Positions 1-37,934 of a stretch of DNA of 64,000 bases are shown here, in pieces. Source of the DNA: Variovorax paradoxus NBRC 15149. GTDB taxonomy: Bacteria > Pseudomonadota > Gammaproteobacteria > Burkholderiales > Burkholderiaceae_C. The notes under the pieces are model-generated. The model saw nothing but the letters and a program-made list of their open reading frames with translations, was not told where the DNA came from and did not search any database. A program made the translations under genes and the position numbers. Numbering within the stretch: the first letter of the stretch is position 1; each line of letters opens with the position of its first letter. The DNA lies in assembly GCF_001591365.1 (NCBI RefSeq), contig NZ_BCUT01000006.1, forward strand, positions 124,001-188,000, in the 5' to 3' direction.

Positions 1-294
1 GCCGTCCGGCGACGCGAGCAGCACGCCGGTGTGGGCCAGCTCCTCGGCCAGCGCGGGCGCCGCCACCGCGAGGCTCTTGTGCGCGGGGAGGTGCTCGAAG
101 GCGGCTTCCAGGGCCGCGAGCAGGTGAGGGGTGGAGGCCGCACTGCCGTCGACCCATTGGAGCGCGGCATCGGCCCCCCCGGTCGCGAGCCGCCAGAGCG
201 AGCGCGTGTCGCCCTGGCGGCTGCGCACGGCGAGCATCCCGCCGTCCAGGGTGATGTCGTGCGGCGTGCCGTCGGCGTAGGAGGTGAGGGTCAT
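1..294 (-). CDS. Partial siderophore-locus protein (N-terminal 98 residues only)
   Basis: Reading leftward from an ATG at 294, the frame stays open for 98 codons and runs off the window edge. The start overlaps the stop of the formyltransferase gene in a TCAT (ATGA on the coding strand) junction, so the two are translationally coupled and in one operon. The visible part is soluble, with no signal peptide or membrane span, and is rich in Ala and Leu. I do not recognise the family from this piece. A GNAT-type acyltransferase acting on hydroxyornithine would fit the context, but that is inference only. Confidence 0.6.
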   Translation of the reverse strand, partial: MTLTSYADGTPHDITLDGGMLAVRSRQGDTRSLWRLATGGADAALQWVDGSAASTPHLLAALEAAFEHLPAHKSLAVAAPALAEELAHTGVLLASPDG

Positions 295-1136
295 GGGGTT
301 CCTTCGGTGGACCGGCGGCTCGCGAGCAGGGCCAGGCCCTGGTGGAGCGCCGGAAAGAGGCTGTGGTTGAAGTTGTTCCAGCGCAGCTCGAGGATCGAAT
401 CCGCGGGGTCGATGTGCGTGCCGAGCACGTCGTGGATGACCTCGCCGGAGTCGATGCCGTTGTCCACGTAGTGCAGCGAGGCGCCGGTCTTCAGGAGCGG
501 CGGGGCGGCGATGCTTTCCATCGTCTGCCAGTTCACGACCTTGCGGCCCTTGGCGCCGTGCAGCGCATCGAGCGTGGCGCGGGCGCCGCGGCGCTCGTAG
601 GGCGACTCGATGCACGTGATGCCGGGGTGGATGTTGACGATCCTGCGGTGGAACGGCGCACCCGGGCGCACGAGCTCGTCCAGGATGACCAGCAGGCCGT
701 CGAGCACGACGATGTCGGCCTGCAGCGTGAGCAGCTTGTCCAGCAGGCGGCGCTCGAAGGCGCTCTTGGCGGCGGGGCGTTCTTTCGCATCGAGCGGAAG
801 CCGCCGGTATTCGGACGGCACCGCGTGGAGCATGCCGTTGAGCTGCTTGCCCTGCGTCTTCAGGTCGCCCGGAAATATCCACTGGCGGCCGGGCTGGCAG
901 GAGAAGCCGTAGTCCTGTAGCGCCGCGCGGTCCCGCGGCGAGCCTTCGTCGTCGTCGTAGACGATGCCTTCGAGCGAATAGGCCTCGCCCAGCGGGCTTT
1001 CGTCCAGTGCCTTGGCCAGGTATTCGAGCGGGGACGCCATATAGCGCTGCGTGCCCTTGAAGTCGATGTACTGGCCGGCCTTGTCGGCGGCCGCGTTTCT
1101 CAAGGACAGGATGTAGACGAGCTTTGCCTTGGACAT
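291..1136 (-). CDS. N10-formyltetrahydrofolate-dependent formyltransferase, probably N5-hydroxyornithine formyltransferase
   Basis: A 281-residue protein of the formyl-transferase N-terminal fold. The active-site signature is NIHPG at residues 168-172, giving the Asn and His of the family triad, followed by the Asp in GIDSG at 227-231. Methionyl-tRNA formyltransferase is ruled out by the surroundings and by the short length, which leaves no room for its C-terminal domain. Enzymes of this type formylate N5-hydroxyornithine to make a hydroxamate iron ligand for nonribosomal siderophores. The gene sits downstream of an FhuF-like reductase and is coupled to the next gene by a 4-base overlap. The ATG at 1136 is the first start in the frame that carries homology; the open frame further upstream is a shadow of fhuF. 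Confidence 0.85.
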   Translation of the reverse strand: MSKAKLVYILSLRNAAADKAGQYIDFKGTQRYMASPLEYLAKALDESPLGEAYSLEGIVYDDDEGSPRDRAALQDYGFSCQPGRQWIFPGDLKTQGKQLNGMLHAVPSEYRRLPLDAKERPAAKSAFERRLLDKLLTLQADIVVLDGLLVILDELVRPGAPFHRRIVNIHPGITCIESPYERRGARATLDALHGAKGRKVVNWQTMESIAAPPLLKTGASLHYVDNGIDSGEVIHDVLGTHIDPADSILELRWNNFNHSLFPALHQGLALLASRRSTEGTP

Positions 1137-1233
1137 GGGTGTGGCGTGAAAGGATGGATCGGCGTTGGAGTTGGCTCGGGAGCAGGCAGGCGTGGGGCCT
1201 TCAGGAGAGAAGACGTGGCAGCGCGCCATCTGT

Positions 1234-2079
1234 TCACGGCTGCAGGATTTCGCCGGCGCTCTTGCGGTGCTGCGGCGCGAGCGGGCAGGCGCCGCAGTAG
1301 TCCTCGCGCGGAAGCAGGTAGTAGAGACAGCACTGGCGGTGCAGCTTGACCGGCCGGCCCTGGCCGGCGCCGGCCGGCCGCACCTCGCGGCAGCGGGCGT
1401 GCAAGGGGTTGAGCGGCCGGGCCTCGTCCGGCCAGGCGGGGTGGTGCAGGAGACGGTCGCGGTCGTGTGCGATGTGGGCTGCACCGCCGGTCGCGGCCAG
1501 CGCCATGTCGAAGATCGGTTCGAGGTGGCGCGCGGTGTTGCCCCACAGGATCTTGGGCGCAAGCCGCGTGAGGCTGCACAGGGCAGTGAAAAGCGGCTGA
1601 AGGTGCTGCCACAGCAGCGGCGCATAGCGCTGCGCGGTGTCGGCGCCGCGGCGCGCATCGCCCAGGTGCAGCACATGAAAGCTCGCGGGCGCGCCCTTGT
1701 CGTCGAGCCGCACCCAGATGTGCTCCGCTGAAACGGGAAGCACGTGCTGCAGCACGCTGGCGGCGGCCACCACGGGCGGCAGCAACGCGGAGAGATAGTC
1801 CAGGCTCCATGCCGAGGCGACCGGCCGCAGGTCGAGCGCGCCGGCCGCGCCGCGCGCTCGCGCGTGAAGGTGCAGCACGTCGGCAAGGAGCGAAGGCGAA
1901 TGCGCCAGTTCGGCCACGCGCAGTGCGCCGGCCGGTACCGTGTCCGCGCACTGCAGCCGCTCGGCATGCACGGCCAGTGCACCGGGGAACAGGGGTTTCA
2001 GCAGCGCGATCACGAGGCGGCCTGCAAGAGGTGCGGGGAATGCATCCCTTGAAGACGGTTTGGCGGCGAGGGTGTTCAT
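1234..2079 (-). CDS. FhuF-type siderophore-iron reductase
   Basis: A 281-residue cytoplasmic protein. Its C-terminus carries the FhuF [2Fe-2S] cysteine pattern: a CC pair (HRQCCLYY), then C-x2-C (YCGACPL), as expected of FhuF proteins, which reduce ferric iron in imported hydroxamate siderophores and so release it. The rest of the protein is poorly conserved in this family. The start is set at the ATG at 2079 (MNTLAAKP); a TTG/ATG-extended version would run into the divergent promoter region. It is transcribed away from the exporter gene that starts at 2213, so 2080-2212 should hold two back-to-back promoters. I could not identify those confidently. Confidence 0.8.
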   Translation of the reverse strand: MNTLAAKPSSRDAFPAPLAGRLVIALLKPLFPGALAVHAERLQCADTVPAGALRVAELAHSPSLLADVLHLHARARGAAGALDLRPVASAWSLDYLSALLPPVVAAASVLQHVLPVSAEHIWVRLDDKGAPASFHVLHLGDARRGADTAQRYAPLLWQHLQPLFTALCSLTRLAPKILWGNTARHLEPIFDMALAATGGAAHIAHDRDRLLHHPAWPDEARPLNPLHARCREVRPAGAGQGRPVKLHRQCCLYYLLPREDYCGACPLAPQHRKSAGEILQP

Positions 2080-2212
2080 CCGGCGCCGCGCATGAACATT
2101 GGCCGGACCCAACCGTCTATGCAGTAAGCGGCGTGCAGCCGCACGGGCGATGTCGACAGGGCATGGCCGTTTTCAAGCCGTTTTGCCCCGGGTGGGCGGA
2201 AAGAGCCTTTGC

Positions 2213-3907
2213 ATGACACCGACCACCACCACGACCCACCGTGGCAACACCGCCGAGCTCGGGCGCCTGCTCAAGCCGTTTCTTCCGTGGATCCTCTTGT
2301 CCGCGGTCACCGGCATCAGCGCGGGTGCGGCCACCGTCGCGCTGCTGGGCACCATCAACCAGGTGCTCAACCGCGAGGGCGGCATGGCGGGCGGGCTGCT
2401 GCTGACCTTCGTCGGGCTGTGCGCGGTGGCGCTGCTGGGGCGCATGGCCTCGGACGTGTCGACCAACTTCGTCGGCCAGCGGCTGGTGGCGCAGGTGCGC
2501 AAGAGCCTCGCGCAGAAGATTCTCTCGGCGCCCATCGATGCACTGGAGCGCTACCGCACGCACCGGCTGATGCCGGTGCTGTCGCAGGACGTGGACATGA
2601 TCAGCGACGTGGCCTTCGTGCTGTCGTCCACGCTCATCGCGTTCGCGATTGCGCTGGGTTGCCTGGCGTACCTCGCGTACCTGTCGCTGCCGCTGTTCTG
2701 CCTCTTGGTGGTGGCGCTCGCGATCGGCGCGGCCATCCAGACACGCGCGCAGGTGCGCGCCGAGGTGGGTTTCTGGAAGGCGCGCGAATACGAGGAGCAA
2801 CTGCACAAGACCTACCGCGCGATCAGCGAAGGCGCGAAGGAATTCCGCATGCACCGCGCGCGCCGCACGCGGATGTTCGGCGGGCAGATCGAGCGCATCG
2901 TGGACAACATCCGCACCGTCAACGGACGCGCCATCAACACCTATGTGATGGCGACGGCCTTCAGCTCGGCGCTGTTCTTCCTGCTGATCGCGCTGATCCT
3001 GGGCTGGGCCGCGTTCCGGCCGACCGAGCCGGCGGTGCTGAGCGGCTTCGTGCTGGTGATGCTGTTCCTGAAGGGGCCGGTGGACCAGATCGCGGGCGCG
3101 CTGCCGGGCGTGGGCCGGGCCAAGATCGCATTCCGGCGCATTGCCGACCTGTCGGCGCGCTTTGCAACGCCGGAGCCGCACCTGCACCTGGAGCGCGCAT
3201 CCAACGGCGTGATGCTTCACCGCGAGATCGCCATGCGCGGCGTGCGCTACAGCTTCGATGCGCCCGAAGGCGGCGAGGCTTTCACGCTCGGGCCGATCGA
3301 CCTGCTGCTGCGGCCCGGGGAGATGGTGTTCATCGTGGGCGACAACGGCTCCGGCAAGACGACGCTGATCAAGCTGCTGCTCGGCCTTTATGCACCGCAC
3401 GGCGGCGAAGTGCTGCTCGACGGCGGCGTGGTGACGCCACAGGGGCGCGACGACTACAGGCAGCTGTTCACGACGGTGTTCTCGGACTTCTACCTGTTCG
3501 AGGACCTGGCGGCCGGCGAAGACGGCGCGGGCACGGCCACGCTGCCGCAGACCGCGCTGCCTTACCTGGAGCGCCTGGAAATCGCGCACAAGGTGAGCGT
3601 GAAGGACGGCGCCTTCACCACCACCGACCTTTCGACCGGGCAGCGCAAGCGGCTGGCGCTGGTGCATGCGTACCTGGAAGGCCGACCGGTGCTGGTGTTC
3701 GACGAATGGGCCGCCGACCAGGACCCGGCTTTCCGGCACCTGTTCTACACGGAGCTCCTGCCCGAACTGCGCGCCAAGGGGCACCTGCTGGTGGTGATCT
3801 CGCACGACGACAGGTACTTCCACCTGGCCGACCGCGTGGTCACGATGCGCGCCGGAAAGATCGAGGAAGACAAGGCGTACGTCCCGCCCGAAAGCCTGGC
3901 TGCATGA
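2213..3907 (+). CDS. Cyclic-peptide/siderophore ABC exporter, PvdE-like (fused membrane and ATPase domains)
   Basis: A 564-residue half-transporter. Residues 1 to about 320 form a six-span exporter domain. The ATPase domain follows, with Walker A GDNGSGKTT near residue 376, the signature LSTGQRKR near 472, and Walker B VLVFDEWAADQDP near 493. The DEWAADQDP sequence in place of the usual DEATSALD is typical of the PvdE/SyrD cyclic-peptide exporters, which move siderophore precursors across the inner membrane. The start is placed at ATG 2213 because upstream codons are not protein-like. It is followed at once by a small gene whose ATG overlaps its TGA stop. Confidence 0.88.
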   Translation: MTPTTTTTHRGNTAELGRLLKPFLPWILLSAVTGISAGAATVALLGTINQVLNREGGMAGGLLLTFVGLCAVALLGRMASDVSTNFVGQRLVAQVRKSLAQKILSAPIDALERYRTHRLMPVLSQDVDMISDVAFVLSSTLIAFAIALGCLAYLAYLSLPLFCLLVVALAIGAAIQTRAQVRAEVGFWKAREYEEQLHKTYRAISEGAKEFRMHRARRTRMFGGQIERIVDNIRTVNGRAINTYVMATAFSSALFFLLIALILGWAAFRPTEPAVLSGFVLVMLFLKGPVDQIAGALPGVGRAKIAFRRIADLSARFATPEPHLHLERASNGVMLHREIAMRGVRYSFDAPEGGEAFTLGPIDLLLRPGEMVFIVGDNGSGKTTLIKLLLGLYAPHGGEVLLDGGVVTPQGRDDYRQLFTTVFSDFYLFEDLAAGEDGAGTATLPQTALPYLERLEIAHKVSVKDGAFTTTDLSTGQRKRLALVHAYLEGRPVLVFDEWAADQDPAFRHLFYTELLPELRAKGHLLVVISHDDRYFHLADRVVTMRAGKIEEDKAYVPPESLAA

Positions 3908-4140
3908 TGCGTGACCGTGTGCCCGACGATCCCGCCTTCGACGCCGCGTGGACGCTCTTTTGCACGCTGCACGACTCGCCCTCGCCGGAGCGCGCCGAAG
4001 AGCTCATCCGCTGGCTCGGCGTGGACCCCGGAAACATCTGCGCGCTGGACGACGTGCTGACCCTCTGGGCGCTGGCCGGGGCCGCGCTGATCAAGCCGTC
4101 GATGCAGGAGGCGCTGCGCGAAGAGGGGCGCCTGCAGTGA
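3904..4140 (+). CDS. Small protein resembling the FecR N-terminal (DUF4880) domain
   Basis: A 78-residue soluble protein translationally coupled to the exporter (ATGA overlap at 3904-3907). Its central part has the spacing seen in the cytoplasmic N-terminal domain of FecR anti-sigma factors: an acidic start, a W, then LIRWLGVDPGN, then a second W in LTLWALAG. It lacks the membrane span and periplasmic half of a real FecR. In FecR that N-terminal domain contacts the FecI sigma factor, and a FecI-like sigma gene lies 250 bases away. Binding to that sigma factor is inference. The start may also be the next ATG at 3907. Confidence 0.65.
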   Translation: MMRDRVPDDPAFDAAWTLFCTLHDSPSPERAEELIRWLGVDPGNICALDDVLTLWALAGAALIKPSMQEALREEGRLQ

Positions 4141-4150
4141 AGCCCGGCCG

Positions 4151-4369
4151 CTACTTCTGCCGGTCGCGCAGATCCGCCGCGATGCCGCCGAGCGCGTCCC
4201 AACGGCGGCGCGCTTCCTGGGCCGCGGCCGCATGCTCCGCCGACCGGCTGCGCCACCGCACAAGCGCCAGGCGGGCGGCCATGGCGGCGTCTTGCGCAGC
4301 GGCGATCTCGCTCTGCACGATCAGCGCGAGGGCTCGCTCGATGAGCTTCTCGTTCGGAACGCTTGCCAC
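4151..4369 (-). CDS. Stand-alone FecR N-terminal-like (DUF4880) protein next to the sigma factor
   Basis: A 72-residue protein that begins with GTG 15 bases after the sigma-factor stop, with GGACGG as a possible ribosome site. Residues 27-60 (ALVRW...EHAAAAQEARRRWDALGG) match the style of the DUF4880 domain that opens FecR proteins: a W, an S-x-EH motif and a second W. There is no membrane span, so the periplasmic receptor-sensing half is absent. FecI is normally followed by a full FecR; here the gene following it is only this domain. It could act as a cytoplasmic modulator of the sigma factor, which is inference. Confidence 0.65.
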   Translation of the reverse strand: MASVPNEKLIERALALIVQSEIAAAQDAAMAARLALVRWRSRSAEHAAAAQEARRRWDALGGIAADLRDRQK

Positions 4370-4384
4370 GGTGCAACCGTCCGC

Positions 4385-5008
4385 TCAGGCGAAATCTTCG
4401 GCGAACACTGCGTCGAAGCCCGGCCGCATCGAGACGACCGGTTGCTCGACCAGTTCCGAACGCAGCCGGGCGAACACGCGCGAGCAGTCGATGGCGGCGC
4501 GCAGCAGGTGCTTGGCGACTGCCATCTCGGTGATCTTCAGCTGCTGGGCGATTTCGGCGCGCGTGTGTCCATAGGCGCGGAACAGCAGGAACACTTCGCG
4601 CCGGCGGGGCGGCAGCGTTTCAAGCGTCTCGACCACGCGCGCCAGCACCTGCTGCTGGGACGCGATGAATTCGCACGACGGCGCTACCTGGCGCGAGCCC
4701 GAGTTGAAATGCGTGCTGACCCAGTCCTGTGCCACCTTGCGGCGGCGCGCATCGTCCACGCACAGGTTGCGCGCCACGCGAAAGAGCAGGGCGCGGGGCG
4801 ATTCGATGCCGCCGGAGCCTTGTTGCGCGCCGTCCGGCGCCGCATCGTCGATGCGGATGCCGTTGTTTATCTTGAGCGCGTGCGCATACACGCGCTCGAA
4901 GCTGGATTGCGCGATGTCCGCCGCGTAGTGCGGGTCGCGCAGGTCGCGCGTCAGCTGCCGGCGCAAGTCCGCATAGTGGGCCAGCAGTTCCTGGACGATG
5001 TCGCGCAT
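4385..5008 (-). CDS. FecI-like ECF RNA polymerase sigma factor
   Basis: A 207-residue extracytoplasmic-function sigma factor. Region 2 is near residues 5-80, with the ARNLCVDDARRRK core that contacts the -10 element. Region 4 is near 130-190, with LPPRRREVFLLFRAYGHTRAEIA and a helix-turn-helix. It should switch on the siderophore genes to its left. The ATG at 5008 is preferred over an upstream TTG at 5026 because an AAGG sits seven bases before it. A Fur-type palindrome lies about 80 bases upstream, so expression should rise when iron is short. The following gene is a FecR-domain-like mini-protein rather than a full FecR. Confidence 0.87.
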   Translation of the reverse strand: MRDIVQELLAHYADLRRQLTRDLRDPHYAADIAQSSFERVYAHALKINNGIRIDDAAPDGAQQGSGGIESPRALLFRVARNLCVDDARRRKVAQDWVSTHFNSGSRQVAPSCEFIASQQQVLARVVETLETLPPRRREVFLLFRAYGHTRAEIAQQLKITEMAVAKHLLRAAIDCSRVFARLRSELVEQPVVSMRPGFDAVFAEDFA

Positions 5009-5089
5009 CCGATCGCCTTCTCGCAAGCATCAACGTGTGGTTTCCCTGACCGGCCACCGCCGCGTGACGCGGGGTGGCTCGGGCGATTG

Positions 5090-5108
5090 AATAAGAATTA
5101 TTCTTATT
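5090..5108. promoter_or_regulatory. Fur box upstream of the ECF sigma gene
   Basis: The 19 bases AATAAGAATTATTCTTATT form a perfect 9-1-9 inverted repeat, the same geometry as the classical Fur box, and match that consensus at 12 of 19 positions. This AT-rich stretch stands out in otherwise GC-rich DNA and lies about 80 bases before the sigma-factor start. Iron-loaded Fur bound here would block the sigma gene. Confidence 0.8.
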
Positions 5109-5247
5109 GAAGTGTAACCTTAACCGCTTCTGAACGAAGCCGGAAAAGCTGCGGAAACCCCGTGCGCGTGCCTGAAAAAGACACTCGGATCGAAAAGTGA
5201 GTAGCTTTGTTTTCGCTTGGGGCGCGCGCTGCGGCCCCGAAGGCCGG

Positions 5248-5952
5248 TCAGCCGCGCTTGGGAATGCCCAAGCCCTTCACGACGGCCGGCCGCGCCACGA
5301 AGGTTTCGAGCACCCGCGCCACATTCTTGAACTCGCTGAAGCCCACCAGGTCGCCCGCTTCATAGAAGCCGATCAGGTTGCGGATCCACGGGAACGAGGC
5401 GATGTCGGCGATGGTGTAGTCGTCGCCCATGATCCAGGCGCGGTTCGCCAGGTGCTTGTCGAGCACGCCGAGCAGGCGCTTCGATTCGGCCACGTAGCGG
5501 TCGCGCGGGCGCTTGTCCTCGTAGTCCTTGCCGGCAAACTTGTTGAAGAAGCCGAGCTGGCCGAACATCGGGCCGATGCCGCCCATCTGGAACATCAGCC
5601 ACTGGATGGTTTCGTAGCGGCCCGCCGCATCCTGCGGAATGAGCTTGCCGGTCTTGTCGGCCAGGTACAGGAGAATGGCGCCCGATTCGAACAGCGCGAG
5701 CGGCTTGCCGCCGGGCCCGTCGGGGTCGAGGATCGCGGGGATCTTGTTGTTCGGATTGAGCGAGAGGAATTCCGGCGACATCTGGTCGTGGGTCTCGAAG
5801 CTCACGAGGTGCGGCTCGTACGCAAGGCCGGTTTCCTCCAGCATGATCGACACCTTCACGCCGTTGGGCGTGGGCAGCGAATACAGCTGCAGCCGGTCAG
5901 GATGCTGTGCGGGCCATTTCTGGGTGATGGGAAAGCGGGACAGGTCGGTCAT
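5248..5952 (-). CDS. Glutathione S-transferase, YfcG/YghU (nu-class) type
   Basis: A 234-residue cytosolic protein. The N-terminal thioredoxin-like domain has the TPNGVKVSIMLEE motif (residues 28-40) typical of the bacterial YfcG/YghU group, in which Thr and Asn replace the usual catalytic Ser or Tyr. A cis-Pro loop (KIPAI) and an ESGAILLYLADK glutathione-binding stretch follow, then an all-helical domain from about residue 100. Members reduce disulfides and peroxides using two glutathione molecules. It stands alone between the sigma-factor promoter region and an unrelated binding protein, so its physiological substrate is unknown. The start ATG is the first in frame that precedes the conserved domain. 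Confidence 0.9.
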   Translation of the reverse strand: MTDLSRFPITQKWPAQHPDRLQLYSLPTPNGVKVSIMLEETGLAYEPHLVSFETHDQMSPEFLSLNPNNKIPAILDPDGPGGKPLALFESGAILLYLADKTGKLIPQDAAGRYETIQWLMFQMGGIGPMFGQLGFFNKFAGKDYEDKRPRDRYVAESKRLLGVLDKHLANRAWIMGDDYTIADIASFPWIRNLIGFYEAGDLVGFSEFKNVARVLETFVARPAVVKGLGIPKRG

Positions 5953-5999
5953 GGGCGATTCATGAAAAGCGGAGTTTGGAACGCCGCGCCCGCAGGGGG

Positions 6000-6875
6000 T
6001 CAGATGCCCAGCCAGCTCATCAGGGCCGTCTCGACCTCGGCCGAGGGTGCGACAAAGCCAGTGTAGGTCGATGTGGCGAGCGCGCGCTTGCCGGCATCGC
6101 TTTGCGCCAGGCCGAGCAGGGCTTCGCGCGCCGCGCTGGCCGTGGCGGCATCGAGCTTGCGCGAGGCCAGCCATTGCTTGATGGGCACCGCCCGCGATTC
6201 CGCGCACACATTGCCGCCGCCGTCCTTCCAGGTCTTGACCACGCCCGATGCCGCGGTGGCGCCGTAGGCGGCGAAGCCGTTCTGCACGTAGAAGGGCACC
6301 GCGTCCTGGTAGCGCGTGTTGGTGAGCTTGAGCGCGGCCGGCTGCAGGCCCTGCTCGCGCAGCATGGCGCGCGTGATCACCGAGGTGATCGAATCCGCGT
6401 CGGGCATCACCAGGCCCTTGCCGGAGATGCTCTTCCAGTTGGAGATGGGCTGCGGCTCCTTGCACAGCAGCGACACCTTGTAGGCCGTGAAGCCGCTGGT
6501 CCAGGCCAGCGCCTGGTAGCGGCCGCTCTTGACGGCCTCGAGCGCCACGTGGGCCGGGTGGATGAAGGCCAGGTCGACCTGCTGCTCCTTCAAGGCCTCG
6601 CGCGCGCTGGTGTAGGAGATCAGCACCTTGATGGTCACGGGCTGCTTCAGCGCCTTGCTCAGCACCTCGGCAAGGGGCTCGAAGCGGGGCGCGATCTGGC
6701 TTTCGGTGGTCTGGTAGCTCACGCCTTCGGTCACGCCGATGACCAGCGCGTGCGCCGGGGCGCCCGCTGCCAGCAGCAGTGCTGCCACCGCCGGGGCGGC
6801 AAGGCGAAGCGGGTTCGGATGGCGGGTGCGGCTACCGTCGGGTTGGCCGGAGCGGAGGGGGGCTGGGATGTACAT
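6000..6875 (-). CDS. PhnD-family phosphate/phosphonate-type periplasmic binding protein (orphan)
   Basis: A 291-residue exported protein. After a charged N-terminus there is a hydrophobic signal sequence ending near AHA at about residue 44, and the mature domain begins LVIGVTEGVS. Features such as LAEVLSKAL, VDLAFIHPAHVAL and the later GFAAYGATA match the PhnD/PhoX-like group of binding proteins. No PhnC or PhnE transporter partners are nearby, so the ligand is uncertain and it may serve a distant permease or a sensor. A TATGAT hexamer (6882-6887, minus strand) ends six bases before the start codon, and I see no clear ribosome site, which suggests a leaderless message. Confidence 0.75.
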   Translation of the reverse strand: MYIPAPLRSGQPDGSRTRHPNPLRLAAPAVAALLLAAGAPAHALVIGVTEGVSYQTTESQIAPRFEPLAEVLSKALKQPVTIKVLISYTSAREALKEQQVDLAFIHPAHVALEAVKSGRYQALAWTSGFTAYKVSLLCKEPQPISNWKSISGKGLVMPDADSITSVITRAMLREQGLQPAALKLTNTRYQDAVPFYVQNGFAAYGATAASGVVKTWKDGGGNVCAESRAVPIKQWLASRKLDAATASAAREALLGLAQSDAGKRALATSTYTGFVAPSAEVETALMSWLGI

Positions 6876-37915: not shown

Positions 37916-37934
37916 GACGATGAGAATCATTATC
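37916..37934. promoter_or_regulatory. Fur box upstream of fbpABC
   Basis: The 19 bases ending AATCATTATC match the classical Fur box at 16 of 19 positions, including the complete right half. The site lies in the gap between the nitroreductase stop and the fbpA start, 57 bases before fbpA, so binding would block the iron-importer promoter. Confidence 0.88.

Follow-up and report, generated by a model that had tools for sequence, protein, structure and literature searches.

What can an extracytoplasmic function (ECF) sigma factor of the FecI type do when the FecR-like protein encoded beside it has no membrane span? This question is raised by a stretch of 64,000 nucleotides from Variovorax paradoxus NBRC 15149, here called the window (contig NZ_BCUT01000006.1, abbreviated C6, C6:124001-188000; genome of 6.66 Mb). 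The sigma gene SIG2 (4385..5026, minus strand; Sigma70_r4_2 9.6e-14), for which an ATG at 5008 was judged the likelier start, is followed 15 nt past its stop by P2 (4151..4369, minus strand, GTG start), an open reading frame (ORF) of 72 amino acids. P2 meets P1 (3904..4140, plus strand), a 78-residue protein with a single FecR-N-like domain, tail to tail with stop codons 10 bp apart, and the ATG of P1 overlaps the stop (ATGA) of the ABC exporter gene of a siderophore cluster (2213..3907, plus strand; ABC_tran 5.2e-24, ABC_membrane 1.6e-7). A first-pass annotation had described the placement and lengths of both proteins, their tail-to-tail order, the exporter coupling and the adjacency to the sigma gene, and the ORFs agree with it in all of these. 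FecI models of NCBIfam match SIG2 (3e-13) below their curated cut-offs, and the superfamily model sigma70-ECF matches above its cut-off. Our answer, which we consider probable, is that P2 is a naturally occurring FecR in a permanently pre-cleaved form.

The distribution of P2 follows that of SIG2. Strong matches to P2 (presence set by eye, E<=3.9e-16) were found in 36 of the 101 genomes of the genus, SIG2 was found in exactly the same 36 and in none of the other 65, and the two genes are adjacent in 29/29 loci (L010-L038). P2 is truncated, with 69-72 amino acids, in 17 of these genomes; the other 19 have an open frame of at least 342 residues at this place, and 18 of the 19 read as proteins of 336-364 residues. 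In the 12 full-length orthologues that were aligned, the N-domain is followed by a basic stretch, then a membrane span, then a periplasmic domain; all 12 that were scanned match PF04773 (FecR). P2 aligns along its length with the N-domain of these 12 proteins and ends before the basic/membrane segment. In a tree of SIG2 (35 rows with G099 omitted, midpoint root, bootstrap incompletely settled) the 17 truncated genomes form one clade with support of 100/99, against 18 full-length rows. Two full-FecR genomes, G037 and G039, have the gene order of the window (SIG2, fecR, converging exporter, FhuF, formyltransferase, monooxygenase-like gene and STN receptor); compared with them, the window has a cut fecR, an added P1 and a receptor without STN. 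P2 is a FecR derivative and not a complete FecR and, as far as sequence can tell, it is a truncated one whose ancestor was full-length. The median pairwise ratio of nonsynonymous to synonymous substitution (dN/dS, Nei-Gojobori, 17 clade genomes including that of the window) was 0.131 for P2, 0.245 for P1 and 0.168 for SIG2, indicating that both short proteins are held by selection, and the median for full FecR was 0.29 vs 0.131 for P2.

The receptor of the cluster (C6:119574-121745, minus strand) has a Plug and a barrel in Pfam and no STN domain, and its signal peptide runs straight to the plug; the STN receptor that marks FecI-FecR-FecA cell-surface signalling was not found in this cluster. 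An STN-less cluster receptor was present in 17/17 genomes of the truncated clade, and an STN receptor lay near SIG2 (within ~15 kb) in 18/18 full-FecR genomes examined, a count that omits G099. The stretches first examined contained a receptor in 16/17 truncated genomes (none with STN), in 12/18 full-FecR genomes (all with STN, which in L126 lies in the neighbouring frame) and in 9/16 P1-bearing genomes without SIG2 (none with STN). A genome search with the window receptor found the receptor of G025, of the truncated clade, 17 kb away from P2 and without STN, and STN receptors 12-14 kb from SIG2 in the six remaining full-FecR genomes. A second receptor, without STN, is present in the full-FecR locus L132. 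These calls used an STN profile built from 11 STN-bearing receptors, and Pfam agreed every time on 14 receptors (8 with STN, 6 without). The receptor is split across two overlapping frames in L126 (G060) and L134 (G077), possibly by sequencing error or a frameshift; that of G077 was counted as STN-less and omitted from the receptor tree.

Most of the 12 receptors first found beside full FecR are of a different type: 9 of the 12 are closer to that of L127, with ~23-35% identity to that of the window. A better-matched set of 12 receptors from full-FecR genomes, 59-66% identical to that of the window, had STN in 12/12, and no truncated-clade receptor, at identities of 64-66% or more, had it. In a tree of 45 receptors with the STN part removed, the truncated-clade receptors fall apart into two groups, both of which have STN-bearing receptors as neighbours; the receptors of SIG2-less genomes take three placements among STN-bearing relatives. 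This amounts to at least five changes of STN state in a direction, loss or gain, that the tree itself does not give; presumably STN was lost by these receptors rather than gained by the others. STN state was read at 30 of 69 receptor matches, and two of the remaining 39 were examined later. Across these 30 receptor loci, a FecR gene was near 12/18 STN receptors vs 0/12 STN-less ones. Several full-FecR genomes (L242-L245, L247, L261, L262) contain extra receptors, 59-66% identical, with STN and their own adjacent FecR, which are further cell-surface signalling loci.

Searches of the whole window genome with Pfam cut-offs gave one PF07660 (STN) match, in a secretin, and one PF04773 match, in a 217-residue frame without DUF4880, and thus neither a full FecR sigma regulator nor an STN receptor above cut-off. 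The first-pass annotation had proposed that P1 and P2 form a cytoplasmic switch that needs no receptor signal. Regulation independent of the receptor is the well-supported half of that proposal: P1 and P2 are both without a span, the receptor of the cluster is STN-less and the sole STN match of the genome above cut-off belongs to a secretin. Uncoupling from the receptor signal is highly probable. A single joint switch is not supported, as discussed below.

P1 and P2 are each confirmed as a single FecR/PupR N-domain by the matches of their families to DUF4880, by the orthology of P2 with the N-domains of full FecR and by their fold, and the similarity first noticed by eye is thereby upheld. Scanned one by one at E<=0.1, DUF4880 was found in 9/14 P1-family proteins (best 5e-6) and 9/21 P2-family proteins (best 8e-4), with the P1 and P2 of the window among the misses. 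The first-pass annotation had named the lack of a DUF4880 match as what would refute the similarity; taken literally, this applies to the two single sequences at E<=1, but the family matches, the orthology and the fold override it. AlphaFold models had a mean confidence (predicted local distance difference test, pLDDT) of 86.7 for P1 and 84.0 for P2. The top VIA-align match of both was the cytoplasmic domain of PupR (5cos/5cam), with Z 8.1 and 1.2 A over 55 residues for P1 (next unrelated 4.5) and Z 6.4 and 2.0 A over 54 residues for P2 (next unrelated 4.0), at 11-20% identity; that domain was cut from a membrane protein, unlike the free-standing P1 and P2. Foldseek ranked PupR first for the P2 model with a weak E of 2.1, and ninth for the P1 model (weak E 3.0) after designed proteins and an AlgU-MucA complex. 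A viral fold library returned nothing useful for the models. Weak matches of the single proteins to ERAP1_C and A1_Propeptide were below cut-off and taken as chance, and the matches of a P2/FecR profile to solved structures (periplasmic PupR 6ovk and two putative anti-sigma chains) covered the periplasmic part only and were uninformative on the N-domain.

We propose that the ancestor of P2 was a full FecR carrying a ferri-siderophore signal from an STN receptor to SIG2, and that in one Variovorax clade the span and periplasmic part went, the cluster receptor being STN-less, so that the soluble sigma-binding domain would be what is left. P2 would still bind SIG2 and work as a constitutive pro-sigma cofactor, much as the laboratory fragment FecR1-85 does, its released N-domain keeping SIG2 competent whenever SIG2 is made. 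The SIG2 regulon, whose membership we infer, would then respond to iron limitation, by way of a Fur-like box upstream of SIG2, instead of to the occupancy of the receptor. According to PMC9249621 and PMC8144685, E. coli FecR fragments from 1-59 to 1-116 turn FecI on without ferric citrate, and FecR85 activates FecI also without RseP. P2 resembles FecR(1-85)/FecR85 in its boundary, with the N-domain kept and the span and periplasmic part gone, and in its FecI-type sigma partner; the difference is that the E. coli fragments come from the laboratory, with the rest of FecI-FecR-FecA intact, whereas the truncation of P2 has become fixed in a clade whose cluster receptor is STN-less. P2 very probably binds SIG2, and we lean slightly towards a pro-sigma over an anti-sigma effect.

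Upstream of SIG2 lies a perfect dyad resembling a Fur box (5092..5106), which agrees at 10/14 positions with the 15-mer TGATAATNATTATCA, which we take to be the Fur consensus and used for scoring. The 10/14 form is kept in 16/17 upstream regions of the truncated clade, with 9/14 in the remaining one, and base-shuffled 300-bp regions reached the same score in 0.5-6% of cases (8.5% for the 9/14 form). A search with a 19-mer Fur consensus and 3 mismatches allowed missed this dyad; its sole match in the window, at 37916-37934 with 3 mismatches and 0 expected by chance, is far from the siderophore genes. The dyad suggests that SIG2 is under Fur control.

Several points weigh against this account. 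By themselves, the window P1 and P2 match neither DUF4880 (PF16220) in Pfam at E<=1 nor any NCBIfam model, and VIA-align Z scores below ~13, modest for small helical domains, may reflect a mere common helical arrangement. The truncation is one event, so the genome counts are not independent. The full-FecR genomes too have STN-less receptors (11 of 29 sampled, none with a FecR gene near), and DUF4880 had no match above cut-off in the window genome, which is weak evidence of absence because the same search passes cut-off in just 2/14 control genomes. The first helix of P2 lacks the tryptophan at the place where W19 is required in E. coli FecR (PMC9249621). In Pseudomonas aeruginosa, PMC4256889 and PMC9249621 describe FpvR1-89 as inhibiting both FpvI and PvdS, its first 67 residues as binding both, and a 67-residue fragment as inactivating both; in Leptospira, the FecR-like N-domain of LIC12756 is by itself an anti-sigma factor (PMC13118517).

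These last precedents favour a different explanation, in which P2, like P1 and a third stub, P0, is a soluble constitutive anti-sigma factor, and SIG2 (or SIG1, the second sigma factor of the cluster) acts once Fur derepression yields more sigma factor than stub. P0 has 67 amino acids (C6:91445-91648) and lies directly after SIG1 (C6:90752-91348), the sigma gene heading the siderophore nonribosomal peptide synthetase (NRPS) cluster at its other end, and before an MbtH gene, ~36 kb upstream of P1 and P2 and outside the window, beyond the view of the first-pass annotation. The FpvR fragment is comparable in that a FecR-family N-domain there acts on two sigma factors that share a siderophore system, a pair comparable to SIG1 and SIG2. 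FpvR, however, is a membrane protein answering FpvA; the stubs described here are three soluble proteins encoded separately, and all of them lack a span. If a permanent inhibitor were co-transcribed with it, SIG2 would be of little use, but its dN/dS (above) indicates purifying selection; and FecI itself is activated by the free N-domain. We regard an inhibitory P2 as a serious contender that is the less probable of the two.

P1 appears to belong with P0 and SIG1. With strong presence set by eye at E<=1.5e-17 for P0 and E<=1.9e-18 for P1, and with six genomes also counted in which P1-like genes stand in tandem and match less strongly (best E 7e-9 to 3e-7), P1-like genes were found in 49/51 genomes with P0 (43 strong, 6 weaker tandem copies) and in 0/50 without it. 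P0 in turn was found in 51/53 SIG1 genomes and adjoins SIG1 in 30/30 loci (L085-L114). Profile comparison linked P1 to P0 with a probability of 97.3% (E 2e-11), P0 to P2 more weakly (40.6%) and P1 to P2 negligibly (1.2%). P1 sits after the exporter gene, not after a sigma gene of its own strand. The first-pass proposal that P1 and P2 jointly form one cytoplasmic switch on SIG2 would accord with their tail-to-tail adjacency in 17 truncated genomes and with P1-like genes in 33/36 SIG2 genomes, but P1 also occurs in 16 genomes without SIG2 and P2 and is absent from 3 SIG2 genomes; P2 is strict with SIG2 (36/36) and P1 follows P0. This pattern of co-occurrence indicates that P1 and P2 are neighbours and not obligate partners, and a joint switch is unlikely. 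Instead, P0 and the exporter-operon P1 would serve SIG1, a reading that we find reasonably likely, perhaps as titrating anti-sigma factors, as the 67-residue FpvR fragment acts on PvdS; an inhibitory effect of P0 and P1 on SIG1 is as likely as any other.

Two further explanations fare worse. A decaying, functionless FecR remnant would fit the origin of P2, in which most of FecR was lost by genomes that have a cluster receptor without STN, but P2 is kept at 69-72 amino acids in 17 genomes of one clade with a dN/dS below that of SIG2, which makes decay very improbable. That an unlinked membrane FecR or STN receptor gives the signal and P2 merely modulates it is conceivable, since one FpvR serves two sigma factors in P. 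aeruginosa (PMC4256889 and PMC9249621), but is hardly to be expected given the whole-genome searches above. Beyond P2 itself, we tentatively suggest, with more doubt than for the pre-cleaved FecR, that the system may have dropped both halves of the relay (the STN domain, and the membrane and periplasmic parts of FecR) and may now depend on three soluble stubs together with two sigma factors under Fur control; P2 would be a permanent activator, and the exporter-operon P1 would provide cytoplasmic feedback on SIG1.

SIG1, which we take to resemble PvdS/OrbS, matches only general sigma-70 models in NCBIfam, and no model named OrbS or PvdS is among the 25 matches listed; its closest named relative is from Variovorax beijingensis (98% identical). 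The likeness is that SIG1 heads a siderophore NRPS cluster and has a Fur-like site; the site upstream of SIG1 agrees at 11/14 positions with the Fur consensus, a score given without shuffling. The PvdS-type promoter TAAAT-N15-17-CGT had no match in positions 1-6000 of the window and the 40 kb upstream. P0 itself matched DUF4880 at 1.1e-4 and 22.4 bits, below the cut-off of 25, and its family matched in 19/19 (best 1.1e-14). Like P1 and P2, it has neither a membrane span nor a periplasmic FecR domain (PF04773). NCBIfam gave no useful match for two P0 proteins, and a P0 profile matched solved-structure sequences only at E 0.3 or worse.

A search of genome contigs for SIG1 found 69 loci. In the 55 nearer ones (L135-L189), where P0 was scored by profile, a P0-like gene of 65-93 amino acids follows SIG1 in 44; the 14 more distant loci (L190-L203) were left out of that scan. 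The pair occurs in Variovorax, in Paracidovorax, in Halomonas/Vreelandella/Chromohalobacter, in Alcanivorax and in Azoarcus, which are beta- and gammaproteobacteria. No P0-like gene was found in the other 11 of the 55, namely 3 Nitrosomonas, 2 Herbaspirillum, 2 Variovorax, 1 Massilia, one metagenome-assembled genome under each of the labels Acidovorax and Cytophagales, and L186, which is cut off too early to judge. A search of 369 genomes of the class with the P0 profile, in which up to 15 candidates were scored for each genome, gave at least six matches at E<=1e-6. Two of these are short proteins; the other four are frames of 320-401 residues, each of which has both DUF4880 and FecR above cut-off. 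P1 was found in 10 of 200 sampled genomes of the family at E<=0.01, four of them strong, including that of the window.

Several loci vary this arrangement. L236 (G661), from another family of the class, has the order SIG1, P0, MbtH and thioesterase, much like the window genome. SIG1 stands without a following P0 in L160, L161, G037 and G039, the last two of which also lack P1. Six full-FecR genomes (L119, L121, L122, L123, L125 and L128, corresponding to G079, G002, G049, G087, G034 and G089) have two weaker P1-like genes each beside FecR, one of which reads through a TGA. In L040, L073 and L082, which have no SIG2 or P2, P1 adjoins the GST-like gene that sits past SIG2 in the window.

The remaining genes at the start of the window, identified with Pfam, form with the exporter the end of the siderophore cluster. 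They are a formyltransferase (291..1136, minus strand; Formyl_trans_N 3.3e-7), whose substrate is presumably hydroxyornithine, and a FhuF-type siderophore-iron reductase (1234..2079, minus strand; FhuF 5.6e-16, FhuF_C 1.6e-5). Further upstream the cluster has an ornithine/lysine monooxygenase gene and an MbtH gene.

Among known systems, a similar pairing is found in Stutzerimonas, where an ECF sigma gene and a DUF4880 protein form a module that lies upstream of a receptor and is listed apart from FecIR; the text seen of PMC13037486 names it in one sentence and in the legend of a figure, without analysis of truncation or function. Beyond that mention we recognised no analysis of free-standing FecR N-domains in the literature searched, which covered few subscription papers. 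PMC9023288 reports that OrbS lacks an anti-sigma factor, whereas SIG1 has P0 directly downstream.

Taken together, these results bear on an idea, that of the released FecR N-domain as the active species, which comes largely from truncation mutants. Such a truncation seems to have been fixed naturally in this clade, and its congeners with an intact system provide matched natural pairs for the question of pro-sigma versus anti-sigma action. P1 and P2 also show why profile searches with single sequences overlook such stubs. In the SIG1-P0 pair, found in several genera, a siderophore sigma factor has a candidate soluble partner, whereas OrbS is said to have none. Finally, cluster receptors without STN are found in several distinct lineages of receptors, and this locus shows how a receptor-dependent switch may become one that answers to iron only.

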